A DNA stretch of 39,090 nucleotides from Methanoculleus sp. (GTDB lineage: Archaea; Halobacteriota; Methanomicrobia; Methanomicrobiales; Methanoculleaceae), in NCBI RefSeq assembly GCF_020696975.1, contig NZ_JAJGBK010000030.1, positions 1-39,090 on the forward strand, read 5' to 3'. Made by a program: the position numbers and the translations under genes. Of the stretch, positions 25,462 through 37,116 are shown one piece after another. Numbering within the stretch: the stretch's first letter is position 1; every line of letters starts with the position of its first letter. Below the pieces are notes generated by a model. It was given only the letters and a program-made list of their open reading frames with translations, did not search any database and was not told the origin of the DNA.

Positions 25462-25573
25462 CCCCGCTCTCTCCGTATGATTCAGTCTCTTCGTCACCGA
25501 TGGTGAAAAGCGTTTGCGGCCGGATATCCCGATACGAAAGCAGTTATCCCGGAGCGGAGAAAACTGTAGAGTA

Positions 25574-26878
25574 ATGTCCTCCTCCCCGATCCACTACCCT
25601 GCACCCGCCTTCGACATCTTCAACGTCTACTTCGAGCGCATCTACGACCCGACGATGCACGTCGTCTTCACCTTCGACGGCAAGGTCGACGCCGGGGGCC
25701 TGCGGGAGGCGACGGTGAGGGTGGTCGGATCCGACCCCTACATCCGGTCCCGGTACGCGGAGGTCGACGGCCGGCCCGTCTGGGAGGAGATACCGGAGGA
25801 GGAGTGGGGGAGAGCCTTCGTCCTCCCCCGGACCGGCGAGGATGAGCCTCTCACGACACCCCCGCCGCCGCTTGACGTCCGCGCCGGGCCGCAGGTCCGG
25901 GTCGGTCTCTACCGGCGAGAAGAGGGAGACATCGTCGCCGTCACGTGCCACCACGGCTTCTGCGACGCCTCGGGCGCCCTCGCACTTGCGAGGGATCTCT
26001 TCGCGGCATACCGGGGAGTCATGGACGACCCGGGGTTCCGGCCGGTCCCCCGCGATCCGTACGAGCGGAGCACGGACAGAATTCTTGCTCTCCACTCGAC
26101 AGAGGAGCAGAAACAGGCGCTTGCCGAGGAGGAGCCCTTCGTCGACCGGTGGCGCTTCCCGGTCGAGCGAACCGGGCGGGGGATGCCCAGGATCGCCCGC
26201 CGGACGCTTGCCCCCGAGCGGCTCGGGCGCATAAAGGCGTTCGGGAGAGAGCACGGGGCCACGGTGAACGATCTCCTGATCGGTGCATTCTTCCTTGCGC
26301 TGGCAAAGATCCGGGACGACCCTGCTGACAGGGAGGAGCCCCGCTCAATCCTCACCTCAGCAGACCTCCGGAGGAGGTATCCCGGCCTCTACGAGAACTC
26401 CCCGCTCACGAACCTCTCCATCGCCTACGAGATCACCCTCTCTGCCGGGGAGGGGAGCCGGCTTGAGGATATTATCGGCCAGGTGACGGCGGCGACGGCA
26501 CGCAAAAAGGCAGGAAGTCTCGGCGTTGCCGCCATCCTCTTCTACGAGGGGATCATGGCGGGCGGGATGCCGGCAGTGCGGGCGTTCTATGACGGGATGA
26601 TCGAGCGCTACCAGCAATCAGGCCACAAAAACCCGGTCTTCTCGAACCTCGGGATATTCGACCCCGGTGATTATCTCCCGGTTCCCGGAAAGGATGGTGC
26701 AGATGTCGGGATTCAGGATATCCAGTATCTCCCCTGCGTCTGCTGGCCCTACGGGTTCCTGATGATCGCCTCCACCTTCCGCGGCCGCCTGACAATCGCG
26801 TCGGCCTACGAGGAGGGGCCGTACCTGACGGCGACCGTGGAGCGGTTCCTCGAGTACGTGGACGAATATCTTCCCTGA
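25574..26878 (+). CDS. Stand-alone condensation-fold (acyltransferase-like) protein
   Basis: 434 residues from ATG 25574, with GGAGCGGAG upstream. The motif H126-H127-GFC-D131-AS-G134 matches HHxxxDxxG of the condensation/BAHD/PapA superfamily, whose second His is catalytic. FGREHGATVNDLLIGAFFLA and the later SNLGIF are also typical. No adenylation or carrier domain is attached or adjacent, so it is not part of a recognisable NRPS. It probably transfers an acyl group or forms an ester or amide in lipid or metabolite synthesis; the substrates are unknown. It is the only such gene here and divergent from the iron-sulfur protein. Confidence 0.85.
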   Translation: MSSSPIHYPAPAFDIFNVYFERIYDPTMHVVFTFDGKVDAGGLREATVRVVGSDPYIRSRYAEVDGRPVWEEIPEEEWGRAFVLPRTGEDEPLTTPPPPLDVRAGPQVRVGLYRREEGDIVAVTCHHGFCDASGALALARDLFAAYRGVMDDPGFRPVPRDPYERSTDRILALHSTEEQKQALAEEEPFVDRWRFPVERTGRGMPRIARRTLAPERLGRIKAFGREHGATVNDLLIGAFFLALAKIRDDPADREEPRSILTSADLRRRYPGLYENSPLTNLSIAYEITLSAGEGSRLEDIIGQVTAATARKKAGSLGVAAILFYEGIMAGGMPAVRAFYDGMIERYQQSGHKNPVFSNLGIFDPGDYLPVPGKDGADVGIQDIQYLPCVCWPYGFLMIASTFRGRLTIASAYEEGPYLTATVERFLEYVDEYLP

Positions 26879-27453: not shown

Positions 27454-28374
27454 TCAGGCCCCGATGAAGAAGAGCACCGCTTCGGCAAGTCCGTCCGGGT
27501 CCTGGTACATCAGGCCGTGCCCGGCCCCTTTGAACTGGACGACCCATGCACCCGGGATCCTCTCGCCGAGGATGAAGGCATTCTTCGGCGGGGTGATGAT
27601 GTCATCAGTCCCCGTGACCACGAGCGTCTTCTGCGTGATCTCCGAGAGGCGGTCGTAGGTGCCGTTCCAGGTCGCCATCGCCGTGGCCTGCCGTCCGATG
27701 CTCTCCGGGCTCGAAGACTCGGTCACCTCCGGGAAGTAGGAGAAGAGGTCCGGATGATCGGCAAACCAGTCCGAGGGGAAGAGGAGCGAAAGCAGCCTTG
27801 CTCCCTGTTCGCGTGGGGTGCCCGTGGTATCCGTGAGCCGGGCGAGCACCTCGGGCGTGGGCTGCACGGCCTCGCTGCCGCCGCTGTCCCCGCTCACCAG
27901 GATCAGGGAATCGACTCTCTCCGGGTGCCTGAACGCAAGTTCCTGGGCGATATCGGCGCCCATCGACCACCCCAGCACGTGGGCGCGGGAGATGTTGAGC
28001 GCGCTCATCAGCCCGGCCGTATCGTCGGCGAAGAGTTCGAGAGAGAACGGGGCGTCCGAGGCCGTCGTCAATCCCATTCCCCGGTTGTCGAAGACGATCA
28101 CCCTGTGGTCTTCGGCAAGTCTCTCGATAAGCCCGGTGCTCCAGAGATCCATGGTGCCGGCAAAACCCATGATCATGATGATCGCATCACCGGTGCCGAC
28201 CGTCTTGTAGGCGATATCAATATCCCCGACGTGCACCGTCTGGACCGGGGCGCCGGTGATATTGACCGGCGATGCGGTCTCCGGCGCCGAACCCATGCAC
28301 CCCGCAGCGAGGACGGCCGCGGCGAGGACGAGCACGGAGGCAGTGAAAGCAGCGAATACGGTTGTCATCATCAT
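27454..28374 (-). CDS. Lipoprotein alpha/beta hydrolase
   Basis: 306 residues from the first of three consecutive ATGs (28374); AGAGGA lies upstream. Residues 1-25 are a signal sequence ending in lipobox LAAGC26, so the protein is probably lipid-anchored outside the cell membrane. Alpha/beta hydrolase core: oxyanion region MGFAGTMDLW, nucleophile S137 in GWSMG, D258 in TGTDDIITPP, H286 in GAGHG. The substrate is unknown; relatives include esterases, lactonases and haloperoxidase-like hydrolases. It lies 190 bp downstream of ahbC on the same strand but probably has its own promoter. Confidence 0.9.
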   Translation of the reverse strand: MMMTTVFAAFTASVLVLAAAVLAAGCMGSAPETASPVNITGAPVQTVHVGDIDIAYKTVGTGDAIIMIMGFAGTMDLWSTGLIERLAEDHRVIVFDNRGMGLTTASDAPFSLELFADDTAGLMSALNISRAHVLGWSMGADIAQELAFRHPERVDSLILVSGDSGGSEAVQPTPEVLARLTDTTGTPREQGARLLSLLFPSDWFADHPDLFSYFPEVTESSSPESIGRQATAMATWNGTYDRLSEITQKTLVVTGTDDIITPPKNAFILGERIPGAWVVQFKGAGHGLMYQDPDGLAEAVLFFIGA

Positions 28375-28566
28375 CGCATTCCTCTTTCCAGATTCAAAAT
28401 CCGGGAGGATAAGCATTGTGAAACATGCGTCGCTGTTCACCGCACCGACATAACGATCCTCTTCTCGCATCGGCCGCTGCCGGGGATACCGGCACAGGGT
28501 GTCGCGGACGCACCCGGCATCCCGCTCGACAGGATGCAGTAGCGGTGGAGCCGCCACCCCCTTATT

Positions 28567-29748
28567 TTACTGCTCGACGAAACAGAACGGGTCCTCGGCA
28601 GCGTGGTCCCCGCCGGCGGCATACGCCCGCACCCGGCAGCCACCGCCGCAGAGGTCCCGGTAGCCGCACCGCCCGCACTTCCCCGAGAGGTCCCGTGGCT
28701 CGGCCCTGAACCGAGAGAGGACGGGGTTCTCCGCGTCCTGCCAGATGAGGGAGAACGGCCGTTCCCGGACGTTGCCGACGAGGAACTCTGGTGACCGGGC
28801 GAACTGGCAGGGGTAGACGTCTCCTTTCGGGTCGACGTTTGCCACCCGCTTGCCTGCGCTGCACCCCCCGTTCAGAGACCGGACGAGCGCTTCGGCCTCG
28901 CGGACGTCGGGAGACCCGTCCCGCTCCATGGCCCGGAGGAGGTGGACGCAGTCCTGCGGGGCATCGACGGTCAGGAACTCCATGAGACCGGGGTCGGCCT
29001 CCAACGCCCTCCGGTAGAGGAGGGTGAGCGCCTCGTCCACCTTCTCCGGCCCCACCTGGAGCCGGTCGTAGGCCTCGCCCCCCCTCCCGCTGGGGACAAG
29101 CCAGTAGAGGCAGAACCGGGAGGCACCGAGCGCCGCCGCGAGGTCGATGAGGGGATCGAGTTCCTCCGTGTTCTCCTCTGTCAGGGTGACCCGGAGGCCG
29201 GTCCGGATGCCTGCCTCCCGGCACCGGGAAAATCCCTCCACTGCCCGCTCAAACGCGCCCTCCGTCCCCCGAAACCCGTCGTGGGTCTCCGGCCGCGCGC
29301 CGTCGAGCGATATCCCGACGTATCCGATCCGTGAGTCCCGGATCATCCGGGCGGCGCTGGAGGTGATCAGGGTGCCGTTCGTGCTGAGCGCGGTCCGGAT
29401 CCCGCGGTCCGCCGCTGCCCGGGCGATCCGGGGCAGGTCGTCACGGAGGAGGGGTTCCCCGCCGGAAAAGAGAATGAGCGGGACGCCCATCCCGGCAAAA
29501 TCCTCGATGAGGGCGAGGGCCTCATCGGTCGTGAGCTCCTCGTCCGTCCTCGAGCCCGGCCCGGACCTGCTGTAGCAGTGGGCGCAGGCGAGGTTGCACC
29601 GGTCGGTGAGGTTCCAGAAGACAACCGGCCGGTACTCCTGCATGAACGCGAGGTACTTCCCCGGTACTTCTGTAAGCGGCCTGTTCTGGTGGCGGACGAC
29701 ATCGCTGACCGTCCCCCGTCCATGCATGCACTGTGTAATCCTGTTCAT
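28567..29748 (-). CDS. ahbC: 12,18-didecarboxysiroheme deacetylase (radical SAM)
   Basis: 393 residues. Its ATG (29748) overlaps the stop of ahbB as ATGA. The N-terminus (CMHGRGTVSDVVRH, then RPVVFWNLTDRCNLACAHCYS) matches AhbC/NirJ-type enzymes; C51, C55 and C58 bind the SAM-cleaving 4Fe-4S cluster, and FSGGEPLLRDDL is the SAM-binding GGEP motif. The C-terminal SPASM-like part has CSAGKRVANVDPKG and CGRCGYRDLCGGGCR. AhbC removes the two acetate side chains from didecarboxysiroheme to give Fe-coproporphyrin III in the archaeal and sulfate-reducer heme route. Operon context with siroheme decarboxylase genes supports the call over a generic SPASM enzyme. Confidence 0.85.
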   Translation of the reverse strand: MNRITQCMHGRGTVSDVVRHQNRPLTEVPGKYLAFMQEYRPVVFWNLTDRCNLACAHCYSRSGPGSRTDEELTTDEALALIEDFAGMGVPLILFSGGEPLLRDDLPRIARAAADRGIRTALSTNGTLITSSAARMIRDSRIGYVGISLDGARPETHDGFRGTEGAFERAVEGFSRCREAGIRTGLRVTLTEENTEELDPLIDLAAALGASRFCLYWLVPSGRGGEAYDRLQVGPEKVDEALTLLYRRALEADPGLMEFLTVDAPQDCVHLLRAMERDGSPDVREAEALVRSLNGGCSAGKRVANVDPKGDVYPCQFARSPEFLVGNVRERPFSLIWQDAENPVLSRFRAEPRDLSGKCGRCGYRDLCGGGCRVRAYAAGGDHAAEDPFCFVEQ

Positions 29749-30233
29749 TCCAGATCGCCTCCATTCTCGCCGATACGCACGTTCGGCACCCTCTTGTACT
29801 CTTCGGTGCTGAAGAGGACGATATACTCCCTGCACCCGACCGCCCGTGCAATCTCCTCGACCGCAGAGCGCACCTCCTCCCGGCTCCTGCCGTGGTGAAC
29901 GGTGTAGAGGGTGTACTCCCATCTCTCCGGCACCGGCCGGCGCAGGTAGCAGTGGGAGAACCCCGGCAAGGAGGCGAACCGGGAGAGCGCCCCCTCGTCC
30001 CACCCGGCGGGCGGGCGCCAGGCGACGAGAGCGTTTGCCGTGATTCCGACGCTCCGCTGGTTGATCCGGGCCCGGATCTTCCGGATCACCCCCTCGCCAC
30101 GGAGGCGTTGCGCCCGGCGGAGCACCTCCGCCTCCGATATGCCGAGCCTCTTCCCGATCACGCCAAACGGTTCGCTGACCGCGGGAATCCCCTTCTCAAG
30201 TTCTTTGAGAAGGCGGACGTCAATCGGGTCCAT
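29745..30233 (-). CDS. ahbB: Siroheme decarboxylase subunit AhbB
   Basis: 162 residues from ATG 30233, preceded by GGGGGAGG; the start lies within the last codons of the upstream gene (14-bp overlap). An N-terminal AsnC/Lrp-like winged helix (IGKRLGISEAEVLRRAQRL) is followed by an RAM-like domain with HCYLRRPVPERWEYTLYTVH, HGRSREEV and FSTEEYKRVP, which are typical of the AhbB subunit. With AhbA it removes two carboxylates from siroheme. Despite the HTH-like fold these proteins are enzymes. The AhbA partner is fused to the preceding AhbD protein. Confidence 0.85.
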   Translation of the reverse strand: MDPIDVRLLKELEKGIPAVSEPFGVIGKRLGISEAEVLRRAQRLRGEGVIRKIRARINQRSVGITANALVAWRPPAGWDEGALSRFASLPGFSHCYLRRPVPERWEYTLYTVHHGRSREEVRSAVEEIARAVGCREYIVLFSTEEYKRVPNVRIGENGGDLE

Positions 30234-31767
30234 GAGGCGCCTCCCCCGACAGGCGGAAACGGACATCTATCTTATAGGCCCGGACGGTGGGAAGGTCGAG
30301 CGCGTCCTCCTCCGGGATGCCGGTCCGCGAGAGGATGTCCGCGAGCACCGCGGAGAGCCGTTCCTCTGTCGGGGCGGCCAGGGTGAACCAGAGGGCGTAG
30401 GGGTGGTCCCGCCGGAAATTATGCGAGACCTCCGGGTAGCCGCTGACGATCCCTGCCACCTCGTGCACCCGGTCCTCCGGGACGCGGAGCGCGACCAGGG
30501 TCGCGGCGGCAAGCCCGAACCTTCGGGAGTCAAAGACCGGCGAGACGCTGCGAAGGACGCCCGCCGCCGCGAGTCTCCGCATCCTCGCAAGAAGGTCGTC
30601 TTCCGCGATCCCGAGATCGGCCGCGATCCCGGTCCACGGGCGGGGCACCAGGGGGAGGTCGTCCTGGAGGGCATCCAGGATCGCGAGGTCGGTCTGATCG
30701 ATGCCCCCGGGCTCGTAGGGGCACCACGGGTCCTCGCGCGAGACCTCCCCGCAGGGGTTGTCGGGCCGCATGAGGCCGTCGCACCACCGGGCCGGGACGG
30801 TCCCAGCCCCGCGGTAGGCCCGCGCCCGGCACCCCCCGCAGACCCCCTTATAGCCGCAACGGCCGCACTTTCCGGTGAGCCGGTCCGGGTCGCGGAGAGC
30901 GTCAAAGAGCTCCGAATGGTTCCAGATCTCGGAGAACGTGGTCGTCCGGAGGTTGCCCGCGCTCACCGGCAGGTAGGGGCAGGGCGTCACCTCCCCGGTC
31001 GCGTATATCCGGCAGTAACTGATCCCGGCCATGCAGCCCCGGCTCCATCCGGGGTTCTCGATCCCGGCCTCGTCGGCGATCCGGCGGAACTGGGGTGCGC
31101 ATGTCGAGCGGATCCGAAGACCGCTCTCCCGGTACCGGAGAAGGATATCCCGGATCAGGTCCTCGTACTCGCGGGGGCTGCCCTGCCCGGGTTCGTGTCC
31201 CCTCCCGGTCTCCACCGGGAAGAAGACCTGGTAGTCGCGCACGCCGAGGGATTCGCCCAGTCCAAGCACCGCCTCCACGTCGGCGAGGAAGGGGCGCATG
31301 ACCGTCATGTTGATCCGGACGGCGAGCCCCGCGTCACGGCAGCGCCCGATCGCGCGAACCGCCCGCTCCCATACACCGGAAACCCCCCGGAACGCGTCGT
31401 GGGTTTCCGGATCCGCCGAATCAAGGCTGACCGCCACCGATCGTACCCCCGCCGCGGCGAGCCGCTTTGCCGTCGCTCCATCGAGGAGGAACCCGCTCGT
31501 CCCCATCGCCATGACGAGTCCCCGCTCCGTCCCGTACCGGGCGACCTCAAAGATATCCTCCCGCATCAGGGGTTCTCCCCCGGAGAGGACGACGACGGGC
31601 TTTCCGGTGCTCGCAATCTGGTCGATGACCGAGAATGCTTCCTCTGTCGAGAGCACCCCGTCTGCTTCGTGCTCACCTGCATCCGCGTAGCAGTGAGCGC
31701 ACTTCAGCGGACAGCGGAGGGTGACGTTCCACGAGATCAGGGCGGGGCATCCCGGTGTGCCGGTCAA
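30220..31767 (-). CDS. ahbD-ahbA: Fusion of heme synthase AhbD with siroheme decarboxylase subunit AhbA
   Basis: 515 residues. Residues 1-355 are radical SAM: C19-x3-C23-x2-C26 in RCPLKCAHC, LSGGEPLMREDIFEVARYG, and a C-terminal Cys-rich SPASM-like part (CMAGISYCRIYATG, CGRCGYKGVCGGCRARAY), fitting AhbD, which decarboxylates two propionates of Fe-coproporphyrin III to yield heme. Residues 365-510 are an AsnC/Lrp-like domain with RPWTGIAADLGIAEDDLL and HNFRRDHPYALWFTL, fitting AhbA. So first and last steps of the pathway sit in one polypeptide. No ATG is available and the start is TTG at 31767, so the exact N-terminus is uncertain. CTTTAACG at 31861-31868 could be its TATA box (minus strand). 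Confidence 0.8.
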   Translation of the reverse strand: MTGTPGCPALISWNVTLRCPLKCAHCYADAGEHEADGVLSTEEAFSVIDQIASTGKPVVVLSGGEPLMREDIFEVARYGTERGLVMAMGTSGFLLDGATAKRLAAAGVRSVAVSLDSADPETHDAFRGVSGVWERAVRAIGRCRDAGLAVRINMTVMRPFLADVEAVLGLGESLGVRDYQVFFPVETGRGHEPGQGSPREYEDLIRDILLRYRESGLRIRSTCAPQFRRIADEAGIENPGWSRGCMAGISYCRIYATGEVTPCPYLPVSAGNLRTTTFSEIWNHSELFDALRDPDRLTGKCGRCGYKGVCGGCRARAYRGAGTVPARWCDGLMRPDNPCGEVSREDPWCPYEPGGIDQTDLAILDALQDDLPLVPRPWTGIAADLGIAEDDLLARMRRLAAAGVLRSVSPVFDSRRFGLAAATLVALRVPEDRVHEVAGIVSGYPEVSHNFRRDHPYALWFTLAAPTEERLSAVLADILSRTGIPEEDALDLPTVRAYKIDVRFRLSGEAPHGPD

Positions 31768-31951
31768 GGATCCATCCCACCTGCTTCTGCGTTCCGGGAG
31801 AAGGCCGTCCTGTAAGGCTCCATCGTGGGCTGCATCCCCCTCACCTCCCCTCGCCTTTGACTTTAACGTTGTGATGGTCGCAGGGATCTGCTCACCCCGG
31901 CGTCCCGGCCCGATCGAGATGCATATCAGTCCCGATGAGTAACTCCAGGAT
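31768..31951. promoter_or_regulatory. Divergent promoter region of the ahb cluster and the MPE-AlkD gene
   Basis: 184 bp. Minus-strand TATA-like CGTTAAAG (31861-31868) faces ahbD-ahbA and would give a leader of about 70 nt. A weaker CATATCAG near 31922-31929 faces the plus-strand gene. No dyad operator stood out. Confidence 0.35.
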
Positions 31952-33580
31952 ATGCCGATGACGAGGATACTCGGTTTCAGCGATCTTGCGTGGGGAACAC
32001 GGGAGCCGGGCCGATCCCGCGGCGGGAGGATCGACCCCGGCTCGTTCCTCCGCCTGGTCGAGGAGACGGATCCCGGGATCGTTGTATTCGCCGGCGACGG
32101 CGCCTATGACCGGTGCTCGCGGTCGGGAGGCGACGAGACCGATCTCTTCCTCGTCCTCATCCAGGAGATTGCAGCGGCAGGGCGGCACTGCGTCATCGTC
32201 GAGGGGAACAACGACGATACCTTCGGCACCTACGGACGGGTCCGGAAGGCAGCGGAGGCGAACCCCCGCATCCACGAGGTATCGGGGAGGGTGCGGGAGG
32301 TCTGCGGCATACGCTTCCTCGGCGTCCCCACCGGAAAAGAGAGGAGGATGGCCCGCTCGGCCGAAGGACCGGTCGATATCGTGGTTGCCCACGCCCCTCT
32401 TGCGAACCGGGTCTGGCTCTTTGACCTCCCGGCGGCGTGCATCATCACCGGCCACTACGGGAGGATGGCGGGCGTGATCGCCGGGAAGGCATACATCGCC
32501 CTCGACTGCTCCCCGTCCTCATACGCGGTGATCGACTGGGAGGAGGGATGGCGGCGGATCGCATACGCCGCCGGAGCGTGCCGGCTTGAGATGCGCCCGG
32601 GGGAGGGGGTCGCCGCGGCCGGCTGCGACGCCGCGGAGGTCCGGCGCCTGACGGAGGGGACGGGACCGCTCCCGTATCGTGAGGAGGTCGAGGCGCTGCG
32701 GCGGGCGAAGCGGGAGATTTCGGCGCTCGGCCGGGAAGAGGTCACCCGGCGACTGCTTGCGATGGGGATCAAGAAGACGCACATCGAGCGGTATCTCGGG
32801 AAGCGGCAGGCTCTGGGCCGCCGCAGAGAGGAGCGCTTATCATACGGCCCCCCCGTACCCGTGAGCATGGATCCGGTCGTCGAGGCGATACGGTGGGAGT
32901 TTGCGGCACACGCTGACCCTGAGATATGCAAGAAAAGCCAGCGGTTCTTCAAGGAGGAGGTCCGGTGCTACGGGATGAAGACGGCGACCGCGGTCGCGAT
33001 TGCAAAAAAGTACTGGAAGGAGGTGAAATCCCGCGAGAAGAAGGAGATCTTTGTCCTCTGCGAGGAACTCTATTCGTCAGGGATGATGGAGGAGGCGTTC
33101 GTCGTCTCCGAGTGGGCTTCACGGCTCGCCGCCCGATACGAGCCCGAAGATATCGCCGTCTTCCGCCACTGGATCGAGACCTACATCACGAACTGGGCCA
33201 CCTGCGACGGCCTCTGCAACCACGCCGTCGGGGACCTCGTCGTCCGGTTCCCGGAGCAGATCGAGGAACTGAAGCGCTGGACGCAGTCGGAGAACCGCTG
33301 GATGCGGCGGGCGGCGGCGGTCTCGCTGGTCGTCCCGGCAAGGCGCGGAGAGTTCCTCGACGAGGCCCTCAAGATCGCCGATCTCCTCCTCACGGATACG
33401 GACGACATGGTCCAGAAGGGCTACGGGTGGCTCCTCAAAGAGGCGAGCAGAAAGCACACCGACGAGGTCTTCTCCTACGTCACGGCAAAGAAACAGAAGA
33501 TACCCCGGACGGCTTTGCGGTATGCCATCGAGCGGATGCCAAAGGACCTGAAAGTGGAGGCAATGAAAAAGGACTGGTGA
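31952..33580 (+). CDS. Metallophosphoesterase domain fused to an AlkD-like DNA glycosylase
   Basis: 542 residues (a second Met is at codon 3). Residues 1-215 resemble calcineurin-like phosphoesterases: SDLAWG with D11, AGDGAYD with D49, GNNDD at 85-89, H147 in VVAHAPL and GH at 167-168. The His of the usual DxH and the last His of GHxH are absent, so activity may be altered. Residues 225-300 are a charged linker. Residues 306-542 are a full-length AlkD HEAT-repeat domain: NWATCDGLC with W415 and D419 (four apart, as Trp109/Asp113 of Bacillus cereus AlkD), ENRWMRRAA with R452, and GYGW with W493. AlkD excises bulky or cationic alkylated bases. A C7 run lies at the junction. Confidence 0.8.
   Translation: MPMTRILGFSDLAWGTREPGRSRGGRIDPGSFLRLVEETDPGIVVFAGDGAYDRCSRSGGDETDLFLVLIQEIAAAGRHCVIVEGNNDDTFGTYGRVRKAAEANPRIHEVSGRVREVCGIRFLGVPTGKERRMARSAEGPVDIVVAHAPLANRVWLFDLPAACIITGHYGRMAGVIAGKAYIALDCSPSSYAVIDWEEGWRRIAYAAGACRLEMRPGEGVAAAGCDAAEVRRLTEGTGPLPYREEVEALRRAKREISALGREEVTRRLLAMGIKKTHIERYLGKRQALGRRREERLSYGPPVPVSMDPVVEAIRWEFAAHADPEICKKSQRFFKEEVRCYGMKTATAVAIAKKYWKEVKSREKKEIFVLCEELYSSGMMEEAFVVSEWASRLAARYEPEDIAVFRHWIETYITNWATCDGLCNHAVGDLVVRFPEQIEELKRWTQSENRWMRRAAAVSLVVPARRGEFLDEALKIADLLLTDTDDMVQKGYGWLLKEASRKHTDEVFSYVTAKKQKIPRTALRYAIERMPKDLKVEAMKKDW
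32847..32853. repeat. Seven-C homopolymer at the domain junction
   Basis: A run of seven C within the linker codons just before Met306, which starts the AlkD part. Such tracts are prone to slippage and sequencing error, so whether both domains are one protein depends on its exact length. A TATA-like CTTATCATAC lies just before it (about 32836-32845). Confidence 0.5.
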
Positions 33581-34245: not shown

Positions 34246-35718
34246 TTGGAGTTGTGTATTCTGACGCAGCAAAATCTTCCGATCAAGTTAGTGGTCGGTA
34301 TCATCGCCCTGATCATCGTTATAGCAGGGATTCTGATTATATTCTCCCCGGGAGGGGAGAATCCTGTTCCGAAAGAGACCACGCAGGACGAGTTGAAGGC
34401 TCTTGCAGTGGAGATCGCGGGCCAGATCGACGGCGATGCCTTCGCCGCCCTCAAGCCCGGTGATGAGACCACACCGGAGTTCATCGCCATCCGCGACCAG
34501 CTCGCCGCCTTCCGGGACGAAAACCCCGGGATCCTCTACGTCTACACGATGCGCAAGGTCGGGAACGCCACCGAGTACGTCGTGGACGCTGACTACGGCA
34601 GCGGCGACGCACCCAGGATAGGCGAGGTCTACTATCCCACGGACGAAGACACCAGGTTCCTCGCCGGGTTCAAGGAGCCCTCGGCTGAGGACGAGTATTA
34701 CACCGAAGAGTGGGGCAATGTCGTTGCCACCATCATTTCCGGGTATGCCCCCATCAAGGACGCGAGCGGGGCCATCGTCGGGCTCGTCGGTGTCGACATG
34801 GGGAGCACGGAGGTGATCGCGGGTGCAGATTCACTGCCGAAGGCGCCCACGGAGGAGGAACTGAAGGCCCTCGCCGTGGAGGTTGCGGGCACAATCGACG
34901 GTGGCGCTCTCGCCGCGCTCAAGCCGGGTGACGAGGCCACCCCGGAGTTCACCGCCATCCGCGACCAGCTCGCGGCCTTCCGGGATGAAAACCCCGGAGT
35001 GATCTACGTCTACACGATGCGCAAGGTCGGGAATGCCACCGAGTACATCGTCGACGCGGACTACGGGACCGATGACGGAGTCGAGATAGGCTACACCTAC
35101 CAGCCCACGGAGTATGACACCCTGTTCCTCGCCGGGTTCGAGGAGCCCTCGGCAGAGCCCTATTACATCGGAGAGTGGGGCGACGTCGTCTACATGGCTA
35201 CCTCCGGGTACGCTCCGGTCAAGGACGCAAGCGGGGCCGTCGTCGGAATGGTGTGTGTCGACGTCGGGGGCGCGATCACCGAGGATATGCTGAAAGACCT
35301 CGCAGTTGAGATTGCAGGCAAGATCGACGGCGATGCCCTCGCCGCGCTCAAGCCCGGCGACGAGGCCACACCGGCGTTCACCGCCATCCGCGACCAGCTT
35401 GCCGCCTTCCGGGACGCAAACCCCGAGGTCCTCTACGTCTACACGATGCGCAATGTCAACGATACCGTCGAGTACATCGTTGATGCGGACTACAGGCCCG
35501 GTGAAGAACCCGCGATAGGCAGCCTCTACCAGCCCACGGACGATGACTCCGCGCTGCTTGCCGGGTTCACCGGACCCTCCGCGGAGAGCGAACTCGCCAC
35601 CGAGGAGTGGGAGAACACCACCGCCGCCATCATCTCCGGGTATGCTCCCGTGAAGGACTCGACCGGCGCCATCGTCGGGCTCGTGGGCGTCGATATGGGG
35701 AGCACGGTTGCCCACTAA
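34246..35718 (+). CDS. Membrane-anchored protein with three tandem Cache/PDC-like sensor repeats
   Basis: 490 residues; the start is TTG at 34246 or 34252. One N-terminal hydrophobic segment (residues 14-34, LVVGIIALIIVIAGILIIF) anchors it, with the rest outside. Three repeats follow at about residues 50-204, 206-348 and 349-490. Each has LAVEIAGxIDGDAxAALKPG, IRDQLAAFRDENPG-LYVYTMR, VDADYG and SGYAP-KDASGA-VG-V-VDMG. This is the extracellular sensor fold of many methyl-accepting and kinase receptors (PDC/Cache type), but here no HAMP, kinase, MCP or cyclase domain is attached. Function unknown; ligand binding or a periplasm-like adaptor role is possible. Confidence 0.82.
   Translation: MELCILTQQNLPIKLVVGIIALIIVIAGILIIFSPGGENPVPKETTQDELKALAVEIAGQIDGDAFAALKPGDETTPEFIAIRDQLAAFRDENPGILYVYTMRKVGNATEYVVDADYGSGDAPRIGEVYYPTDEDTRFLAGFKEPSAEDEYYTEEWGNVVATIISGYAPIKDASGAIVGLVGVDMGSTEVIAGADSLPKAPTEEELKALAVEVAGTIDGGALAALKPGDEATPEFTAIRDQLAAFRDENPGVIYVYTMRKVGNATEYIVDADYGTDDGVEIGYTYQPTEYDTLFLAGFEEPSAEPYYIGEWGDVVYMATSGYAPVKDASGAVVGMVCVDVGGAITEDMLKDLAVEIAGKIDGDALAALKPGDEATPAFTAIRDQLAAFRDANPEVLYVYTMRNVNDTVEYIVDADYRPGEEPAIGSLYQPTDDDSALLAGFTGPSAESELATEEWENTTAAIISGYAPVKDSTGAIVGLVGVDMGSTVAH
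34393..35715 (+). repeat. Three coding repeats of about 430-465 bp
   Basis: Copies at about 34393-34857, 34861-35289 and 35290-35715. The block from the ALKPG codons to the VDADYG codons is nearly identical in DNA between copies 1 and 2, including silent positions, and slightly less so in copy 3. This points to recent duplication or gene conversion. Confidence 0.8.
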
Positions 35719-35958: not shown

Positions 35959-37116
35959 ATGAAGAGCCCTTTCCACGTCATGATCATCCCCACGCTCGGC
36001 TGCCCCTCAAAATGCCACTACTGCTGGAGTTCGGATGAAGGGTCTCCGAGGATGAGCATCGAGACGGTCCAGGCGATAGCCGAATGGCTCAAGGACTACC
36101 AGTCCAACCAGGTCACGATCACCTTCCACGGTGGCGAGCCGCTCCTTGCCGGCGCAGAGTTCTACCGGCAGACCCTCCCCATCCTCTCCGGGGAACTTGC
36201 CCACCTCACACCGACGTTTGCCCTGCAGAGCAACCTCTGGCTCCTCACCCCGGAACTGGCACAGGTGCTCGCGGAGTACCGTATCCCGATCGGCTCGAGC
36301 ATCGACGGCCCCGAGGAGATCACCGACACGCAGCGAGGAGAGGGCTACTTCAAGAAGACCATGCGGGGCTACGAGATAGCGCGGGCGAACGGGCTTGAGG
36401 TCCGGTTCATATGCACGTTTACCAACCGGTCGGTCAGGGAGAAGGAAGCGATCTTCAACTTCTTCCTCGAGCGGGGGTTCCCGCTCAAACTCCACCCGGC
36501 GCTCCCGTCGCTCCGAAGCAAAGACCCAAAGGAGTGGGCGCTCGAACCGGAGGAGTACGGGGAGCTGCTCGTCTACCTCCTCGACAGGTACCTGGAGAAC
36601 CTGGGCCGGATCGAGGTCATGAACATCAACGACCTCTGCAAATGCATCTTCACCCGGCACGGCACCGTCTGCACATACGTGGACTGCATGGGAACCACCC
36701 TTGCAATCGGCCCTGACGGGAGCATATACCCCTGCTACCGCTTCGTCGGCATGCCGGAGTACGTGATGGGGAACGTCCGCGACCGCCCCACGGCCGAAGA
36801 CCTCGCCCGGTCGGAGGCCTGGAAGCTGATGCACGCGTTCAAGGACTACGTCGACCGCGAGTGCGCCGGGTGCTCTCACATCAAGTACTGCCGGGGAGGG
36901 TGCCCCTACAACGCGATCGCCCCGACGGACGGTGAGGTCCGGGGCGTCGACCCCCACTGCGTGGCGTATAAACGGATATTTGATGAGATCACTACCCGGT
37001 TGAACGACGAGATGTTCGGGTCGGCGGATATGGAGATGGGCGGGTTCGGCTTCCCGCCCCGGAAGGGGGCGAAACCGGGGATCATGGCGATCCTCAGAAC
37101 GATGGCGACGAGGTAG
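35959..37116 (+). CDS. Radical SAM/SPASM domain enzyme, possibly peptide-modifying
   Basis: 385 residues. The SAM cluster is C15-x3-C19-x2-C22 in LGCPSKCHYCW and the SAM site FHGGEPLL. The SPASM region holds C-M-GTTLAIGPDGSIYPCYRF and CAGCSHIKYCRGGCPYNA, for two auxiliary 4Fe-4S clusters. This layout is shared by anaerobic sulfatase maturases and by a methanogen family annotated as putative peptide-modifying enzymes. No sulfatase and no small Cys-rich precursor is visible within about 1 kb on either side, so the substrate is unknown. The C-terminal 35 residues (after DEMFGSAD) are a Met/Gly/Pro-rich tail beyond the SPASM domain. Confidence 0.88.
   Translation: MKSPFHVMIIPTLGCPSKCHYCWSSDEGSPRMSIETVQAIAEWLKDYQSNQVTITFHGGEPLLAGAEFYRQTLPILSGELAHLTPTFALQSNLWLLTPELAQVLAEYRIPIGSSIDGPEEITDTQRGEGYFKKTMRGYEIARANGLEVRFICTFTNRSVREKEAIFNFFLERGFPLKLHPALPSLRSKDPKEWALEPEEYGELLVYLLDRYLENLGRIEVMNINDLCKCIFTRHGTVCTYVDCMGTTLAIGPDGSIYPCYRFVGMPEYVMGNVRDRPTAEDLARSEAWKLMHAFKDYVDRECAGCSHIKYCRGGCPYNAIAPTDGEVRGVDPHCVAYKRIFDEITTRLNDEMFGSADMEMGGFGFPPRKGAKPGIMAILRTMATR

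Follow-up and report, generated by a model that had tools for sequence, protein, structure and literature searches.

An archaeal siroheme-to-heme operon with AhbD fused to AhbA, and its probable link to oxygen-defence heme enzymes in the Methanomicrobiales

In this work, we ask why a methanogen of the order Methanomicrobiales should make heme, and what it means that two proteins of its heme pathway are encoded as one; both questions are raised by a locus in the genome of a Methanoculleus-like archaeon. The locus is found on the minus strand, at positions 28567–31767, of a stretch of 39,090 nucleotides that we refer to as “the window” (positions 1–39,090 of contig NZ_JAJGBK010000030.1, assembly GCF_020696975.1), and it is a siroheme-to-heme operon that consists of an AhbD-AhbA fusion, AhbB and an AhbC-type enzyme. 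We consider it probable that the operon makes heme b from siroheme, that AhbD and AhbA were joined by a short deletion, and that the heme is used mainly by heme enzymes of the defence against hydrogen peroxide (H2O2) and oxygen (O2). An earlier note, prepared from the letters of the window, had read the locus as a heme operon with an AhbD-AhbA fusion in a possibly cytochrome-poor host of the Methanomicrobiales, and its interpretation as a whole is partly supported: the host belongs to that order, and the Ahb families and the fusion are borne out by profiles, domains and matches to the chains of solved structures, while the description “cytochrome-poor” cannot be taken as given for the order, as discussed further below. 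The features of the operon are the following:

30220–31767, minus strand: ahbD-ahbA fusion gene, 515 amino acids (aa); TTG 31767 is the earliest possible start in its frame.
30718–31767, minus strand: AhbD-type radical SAM/SPASM domain, residues 1–350 of the fusion; TIGR04545 matches residues 10–322 with 325.6 bits.
30253–30702, minus strand: AhbA-type siroheme decarboxylase domain, residues 356–505, with an HNFRR motif; NF040708 matches residues 362–504 with 128.1 bits.
29745–30233, minus strand: ahbB, 162 aa, ATG at 30233, with an HCYLR (HxYxR) motif; NF040707, 145.2 bits.
28567–29748, minus strand: ahbC-type radical SAM/SPASM gene, 393 aa, ATG at 29748, with CX3CX2C at residues 51–58.

The three-frame minus-strand locus is real as first described, since the coordinates and the starts of the open reading frames agree with the junctions that had been reported: the start of ahbB overlaps the end of the fusion gene by 14 base pairs (bp), and the start of ahbC overlaps the stop of ahbB as ATGA. 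Within the fusion, the final cluster cysteine of the AhbD domain, C349, is located approximately six residues ahead of the AhbA domain. The four-gene ahb order is conserved among the relatives, and all four segments are under purifying selection; the ratios of nonsynonymous to synonymous substitution (NG86 dN/dS, window versus five fused relatives) are 0.17–0.21 for D, 0.23–0.31 for A, 0.27–0.47 for B and 0.21–0.28 for C. The N-terminus of the fusion is the single uncertain detail of the gene calls, due to an additional frame that precedes it:

31764–31835, minus strand: 23-codon upstream frame; ATG 31835 with GGAGGTGA upstream, a good ribosome-binding site.

In comparison with the relatives, this ATG seems to correspond to the start that they use. 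The short frame and the fusion are not in the same reading frame, and the TGA of the former shares bases with the TTG of the latter (TTGA), so that the fusion either starts at a coupled TTG or includes a tract with a frameshift.

The identity of the four enzyme types has been examined with profiles, motifs, structures and a tree. For the N-terminal part of the fusion, AhbD is the best of all NCBIfam models (E-value 4e-97), and in the same search the AhbA profile matches the C-terminal third (E-value 2e-37); AhbB passes its cut-off of 125 bits, while the third protein scores 327.2 bits with TIGR04347, 316.3 with TIGR04546 (AhbC) and 309.8 with NirJ. The D domain contains the radical SAM motif CX3CX2C at residues 19–26 and a complete eight-cysteine SPASM motif at residues 223–349, i.e. 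the pattern that is given for the AhbD of methanogens (and sulfate reducers) in PMC10452713. The cysteine motifs and HxYxR are present in all 15 relatives examined; the arginine of HxYxR has been proposed as catalytic in siroheme decarboxylase, where an arginine mutant is inactive (PMC4145669).

The earlier note had named two findings that would speak against a heme operon, namely a closer kinship of the fused C-terminal domain with true AsnC/Lrp regulators, and a closer kinship of the two radical SAM genes with non-heme SPASM families. Neither was found. The fused C-terminus matches PF17805 (72.9 bits) and PF22451 (53.1 bits), both over the cut-off, versus 30.2 bits for the AsnC helix-turn-helix; the siroheme-decarboxylase-type helix-turn-helix and ligand domains are also over the cut-off on AhbB, for which the regulator profiles LysM (27.3 bits) and LrpA (23.6 bits) stay far under theirs; for neither is a true regulator family the best match. 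The best matches of the radical SAM proteins are AhbD on the one hand and TIGR04347, AhbC and NirJ on the other, not peptide maturases. In sequence comparison with solved structures, the fused C-terminus matches the AhbA chain 4czd_A with 100 bits and the AhbB chain 4czd_B with 28 bits; NirDL, likewise, is matched far better than 4czd_B. A Foldseek search confirms the two folds of the fusion, with the AhbA-type domain matching 4czd; the AlphaFold model has a mean predicted local distance difference test (pLDDT) score of 69.3, and residues 295–356, which include part of the SPASM domain and the junction, are below 50, hence their geometry has not been used.

Some of the results weigh against these assignments. 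The AhbD domain falls short of the TIGR04545 cut-off of 500 bits, the AhbC-type enzyme of the TIGR04546 cut-off of 650 bits and the AhbA domain, narrowly, of the NF040708 cut-off of 140 bits; reference AhbD genes over the TIGR04545 cut-off, from genomes of the phylum, are only about 39–44% identical to the D domain. In a tree of 87 rows, the split between a D side and a C side is strongly supported; TIGR04053 rows, however, fall on the same side as the D domain and reference AhbD, and reference AhbC is placed with NirJ, the C protein of the window lying outside. As the sole test for AhbC and AhbD, the NCBIfam cut-offs have been rejected, because most relatives in the phylum fall below them too (AhbD is over the cut-off in 45 of 246 genomes and AhbC in 36 of 246), and TIGR04545 was passed by one of three control genomes. 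We consequently use the names AhbD-type and AhbA-type, while the name AhbC rests on operon context, as neither score nor tree splits AhbC from NirJ. AhbD-like SPASM proteins also occur in genomes without ahb (L070, L074, L075 and L077; open frames of about 485–567 aa) and form a separate clade of the tree; in the searches with the fusion and with TIGR04545, such paralogues in family genomes without ahb were not counted as ahb.

The near-equal scores bear on an alternative product, i.e. a modified tetrapyrrole that is not heme b, such as a heme d1-like compound: C is almost as close to NirJ as to AhbC, NirJ falls inside the C side of the tree, and D scores 320.5 bits with NirJ2. The D domain, however, carries the SPASM pattern of AhbD from methanogens and sulfate reducers (PMC10452713), and the neighbours of these operons are heme enzymes, so that we regard this alternative as very improbable. 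For the preferred product, heme b, the reactions would follow those of the characterised homologues: siroheme would be decarboxylated by AhbA and AhbB, the AhbC-type enzyme would strip two acetate chains to yield iron-coproporphyrin III, and the AhbD-type enzyme would form the two vinyl groups of heme b. The heme would be passed mainly to defence enzymes, here to a large HPII-type catalase that is encoded on another contig, and in the relatives to a catalase, a KatG or a cytochrome bd-like pair that adjoins the operon. Both a uroporphyrinogen methyltransferase (298 bits, cut-off 185) and the large catalase are present in the genome, where the earlier note had proposed to look for siroheme-related genes and heme proteins.

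The fusion itself is real but rare, and its junction sequences suggest that it probably originated in a single event. The contig scan with the fusion yielded 24 loci, of which 23 are archaeal, mostly of Methanomicrobiales, and one, a remote match, is in a Clostridia bin. The gene is matched at an E-value of 1e-90 or better in 71 of 185 Methanomicrobiales genomes and is fused in eight of the 71: seven from the genus of the window, the window included, with 83–87% identity to the window, and one (G165) of another family, with 79%. Two drafts, G348 and G370, contain two ahbD-type loci each. The junction was inspected in the window and in 52 loci, in which some organisms are repeated and one locus, L027, ends ahead of the junction. 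In the fused members inspected, CPYEPGG is joined straight to (I/A)DxxDLAIL, with a small variant, CPYEPGTADR, in L010, which is as expected from a single event. In split relatives, the ahbD TGA usually overlaps the start of ahbA by four bases (ATGA), and in one split Methanoculleus group an in-frame TGA is followed by the ahbA start directly or within one codon. A deletion of about 26 nucleotides (relative to L011) across the former ATGA overlap would have eliminated the stop and fused the two proteins, leaving next to no linker between them. The fused operon also looks foreign to the genus, since its D part is 52–57% identical to that of the split operons of other Methanoculleus and 61–70% identical to that of other families and of G001, a member of the same family.

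As to what the fusion does, we lean towards the explanation that it is functionally neutral, i.e. that a small deletion joined overlapping genes and that the AhbA half is an ordinary AhbA/B subunit, with no channelling: the proteins are joined in only eight of the 71 genomes with the gene, the same gene order occurs unfused elsewhere, and a single junction is shared by the fused members. The fact that the fusion persists in the seven genomes of the genus and in one of another family, and that purifying selection acts on each half, could be held against this explanation, but it fits a neutral link too. The second explanation, according to which the fusion channels intermediates or couples the first and last steps, e.g. 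through heme feedback, in one complex, draws on the AhbA/B of M. barkeri and D. vulgaris, with which heme co-purifies, and on the M. barkeri enzyme, which is influenced by the redox state of heme, so that a heme synthase tied to AhbA could aid control (PMC4145669). In the established pathway, however, AhbC acts between AhbA/B and AhbD, and the product of AhbA/B is not the direct substrate of AhbD; in addition, most relatives are unfused and the structure model is too weak near the junction to be of use. We find such a benefit rather unlikely.

Compared to known systems, the operon shares its four enzyme types, the distinct AhbA and AhbB units and the eight-cysteine SPASM of AhbD with the AhbABCD of Methanosarcina barkeri (PMC3942049, PMC10452713), where, in contrast, AhbD is a separate protein. 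Four consecutive ahb-nir genes of the expected types, all separate, unlike the fusion of the window, are described in PMC3004389 for Methanoculleus marisnigri JR1 (MEMAR_0876–0879) and Methanoregula boonei (MBOO_0955–0958); the portion of that paper on these genes mentions no heme-protein neighbour. In NirDL (4ch7) and the archaeal AhbA-AhbB fusions, a siroheme decarboxylase subunit is likewise joined to another protein of the pathway, but those fusions combine both subunits of a single enzyme, whereas the fusion of the window attaches one subunit to the final enzyme of the pathway. An ahbAB-ahbD fusion has been reported in 2024 as cluster 36.2 in five Methanomicrobia assemblies (PMC11237513), in a paper that also gives ahbA and ahbB as split in Methanomicrobiales; this cluster, although described as ahbAB with ahbD, is possibly the same D-A fusion.

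Our search for the purpose of the heme is focused on the 185 genomes of the order, where a match to AhbB marks a genome as ahb-positive. AhbB is found in 76 genomes (74 over the curated cut-off), catalase in 56 and KatG in 45; a catalase or a KatG is present in 68 of the 76 ahb-positive genomes versus 30 of the 109 ahb-negative ones (Fisher p 9e-18, uncorrected for kinship), and at the level of the family, catalase is present in 21 of 26 ahb-positive and in none of 14 ahb-negative genomes. Moreover, 43 of these 68 genomes encode AhbB and the defence enzyme within 4 kb of each other (20 catalase, 23 KatG). A large catalase follows ahbC on the same strand. A small catalase is found either convergent after ahbC or ahead of ahbD, where it can share the strand or be divergent; the same two orientations ahead of ahbD are seen for KatG, which can also be convergent after ahbC. 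These varied arrangements point to repeated association, rather than to one inherited cluster.

Other counts run in the opposite direction: taken singly, catalase is missing from 41 and KatG from 40 of the 76 ahb-positive genomes, the 30 ahb-negative genomes have a catalase or KatG nonetheless, so their heme may come from elsewhere, and the catalase of the window's genome (G000) is unlinked to ahb. This large catalase is open and of full length, with 1064.5 bits for the HPII profile (cut-off 1102). Regarding the scope of the counts, G373, one of the 30, was counted as ahb-negative although an ahbD lies next to a catalase at the end of one of its contigs, and so was G026, with only a 62-residue ahbD-like piece; a catalase match with stops (G221), a KatG match with an internal stop (G051) and partial matches (G306, G308, G320, G356, G368 and some others) were counted as present. 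In genomes with ahb on short contigs (G021, G025, G280, G340, G342, G374, G377 and others), a missing neighbour means little, and the neighbourhood listing comprises 36 loci, not 36 organisms, as some genomes possibly occur twice. Nine genomes of one genus (G161, G241, G283–G288 and G292) have a catalase with no AhbB match, and they may be heme scavengers. Taken together with the history of the locus, the co-occurrence and the adjacency favour defence against H2O2 and O2 as the most likely reason for heme synthesis, and catalase, one of the options of the earlier note, gains support.

The history of the locus is recorded next to ahbC, where two further features are located:

28496–28542, plus strand: catalase scar (deleted small catalase gene), the final 14–15 codons plus TAG, convergent with ahbC and 24 bp away.
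27454–28557, minus strand: alpha/beta hydrolase (PF00561, 98.3 bits), a listed open reading frame whose true start may lie further in.

In the scar, 11 of 14 residues are those of a catalase C-terminus, and no other site of the window reaches nine of 14. The DNA homology to four fused relatives (L006, L007, L009 and L010) continues past the ahbC stop and ends at position 28496; in L009, a catalase sits between ahbC and the hydrolase region, which matches the hydrolase of the window with 87% identity over 996 nucleotides (blastn). G035 has a different, longer catalase remnant, a C-terminal end of 27 residues, and since the two remnants are of unlike length, the catalase was probably lost twice. 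G000 and G011 share 85–87% identity at their large-catalase loci, beginning immediately past the G011 ahbC, and no ahb gene is found in the 11.5-kb stretch of G000 with the large catalase. These observations suggest the loss of a native operon next to the large catalase and its replacement by the fused operon. We slightly favour a broader reading, in which heme synthesis in Methanomicrobiales would be a mobile oxygen-defence trait: ahb would move and persist with one of several heme enzymes, be it a catalase, a KatG or a CydAA'-like pair, not with methanogenic cytochromes, and in the lineage of the window a foreign fused operon with its own small catalase would have displaced the native operon beside the large catalase, after which the small catalase would have been lost twice, leaving scars.

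Eight of the 76 ahb-positive genomes contain neither catalase nor KatG (G004, G015, G018, G023, G025, G281, G342 and G374); in G023, the contig ends within the start of a catalase beside ahb. In G004, a genome of a single contig, ahbC is directly followed by a cupredoxin protein and two PF01654 proteins; the arrangement recurs in G015, in G022 and G029, which have a catalase elsewhere in the genome, and in G018, where only the second PF01654 protein matched. The two proteins are 51% identical to each other and are called cytochrome bd-like on the basis of PF01654 (51.8 and 61.5 bits, cut-off 26.2) and of two histidines of the second protein that align with histidines of a 5doq chain, which we take to be heme ligands there; the pair presumably resembles the archaeal CydAA' oxygen reductases. 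In a search of the PDB sequences, the first protein had no match and the second a weak one (E-value 4e-4), and in NCBIfam neither was matched. In the genus of the window, the bd subunit I-like pair is seen beside ahb together with cupredoxin and GSDH/fasciclin proteins (L178:10494–13919 in G004, L189, L190, L191 and L193).

The alternative that respiratory cytochromes, or a heme sensor of gas or redox state, are the main destination of the heme would agree with this pair, which adjoins ahb in G004, G015, G022 and G029, with pieces in G018, and with the MsmS-like sensors that have been reported in four Methanomicrobiales genomes (PMC8351635). Adjacency to catalase or KatG is, however, far commoner, with 43 genomes, and PF02665, as a test for b-type cytochromes, matched one of the 185 genomes; the test is weak, as it missed the control Methanosarcina acetivorans, which presumably has HdrE, and it has been set aside as uninformative for HdrE-type cytochrome b. 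We judge such a chief use of the heme to be improbable. The same two results, the pair beside ahb in some relatives and the insensitive test, are the reason why “cytochrome-poor” is not yet secure as a description of the order.

Apart from the operon, the catalase scar and the hydrolase gene, four genes of the window have been noted. In the protein at 31952–33580 (plus strand, 542 aa), residues 314–529 match PF08713, a DNA alkylation repair domain, and the N-terminal part resembles, by eye, a metallophosphoesterase; some relatives have shorter, separate frames at its place. The gene at 34246–35718 (plus strand) shows three similar repeats by eye in translation, with a weak sCache match; the one at 35959–37116 (plus strand) encodes another radical SAM/SPASM protein (PF04055 61.0 bits, PF13186 32.6 bits), which several of the fused relatives also have close to their operon; and at 25514–26878 (plus strand) this methanogen encodes a protein with a condensation/PapA-like acyltransferase domain (PF00668, 32.5 bits).

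The literature on heme synthesis in this order is contradictory. In 2010, ahb-nir genes were tabulated for three Methanomicrobiales, M. marisnigri, M. boonei and M. palustris (PMC3004389); in 2021, AhbABCD was given as present in none of 32 Methanomicrobiales and KatG in seven of the 32, with environmental heme as the suggested source (PMC8351635); in 2025, the full pathway was attributed to Methanosarcinales only (PMC7618691); and elsewhere the pathway is reported in 32 of 41 archaeal lineages (PMC9478090). The genes had thus been seen before the order was denied the pathway, and the presence of AhbB in 76 of 185 genomes contradicts both the 2021 and the 2025 papers. A link between ahb and catalase or other defence enzymes was not found stated in the portions of the open-licence literature that were searched.

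The operon is thus a known pathway with an unusual, rare fusion, probably of single origin, plus a testable explanation for its upkeep: the heme-enzyme neighbours give the heme pathway of Methanomicrobiales a purpose that can be tested. If this explanation is true, the heme of these methanogens would be accounted for by exposure to oxygen, not by respiration, and how well they tolerate H2O2 and O2 would become testable at a single operon.

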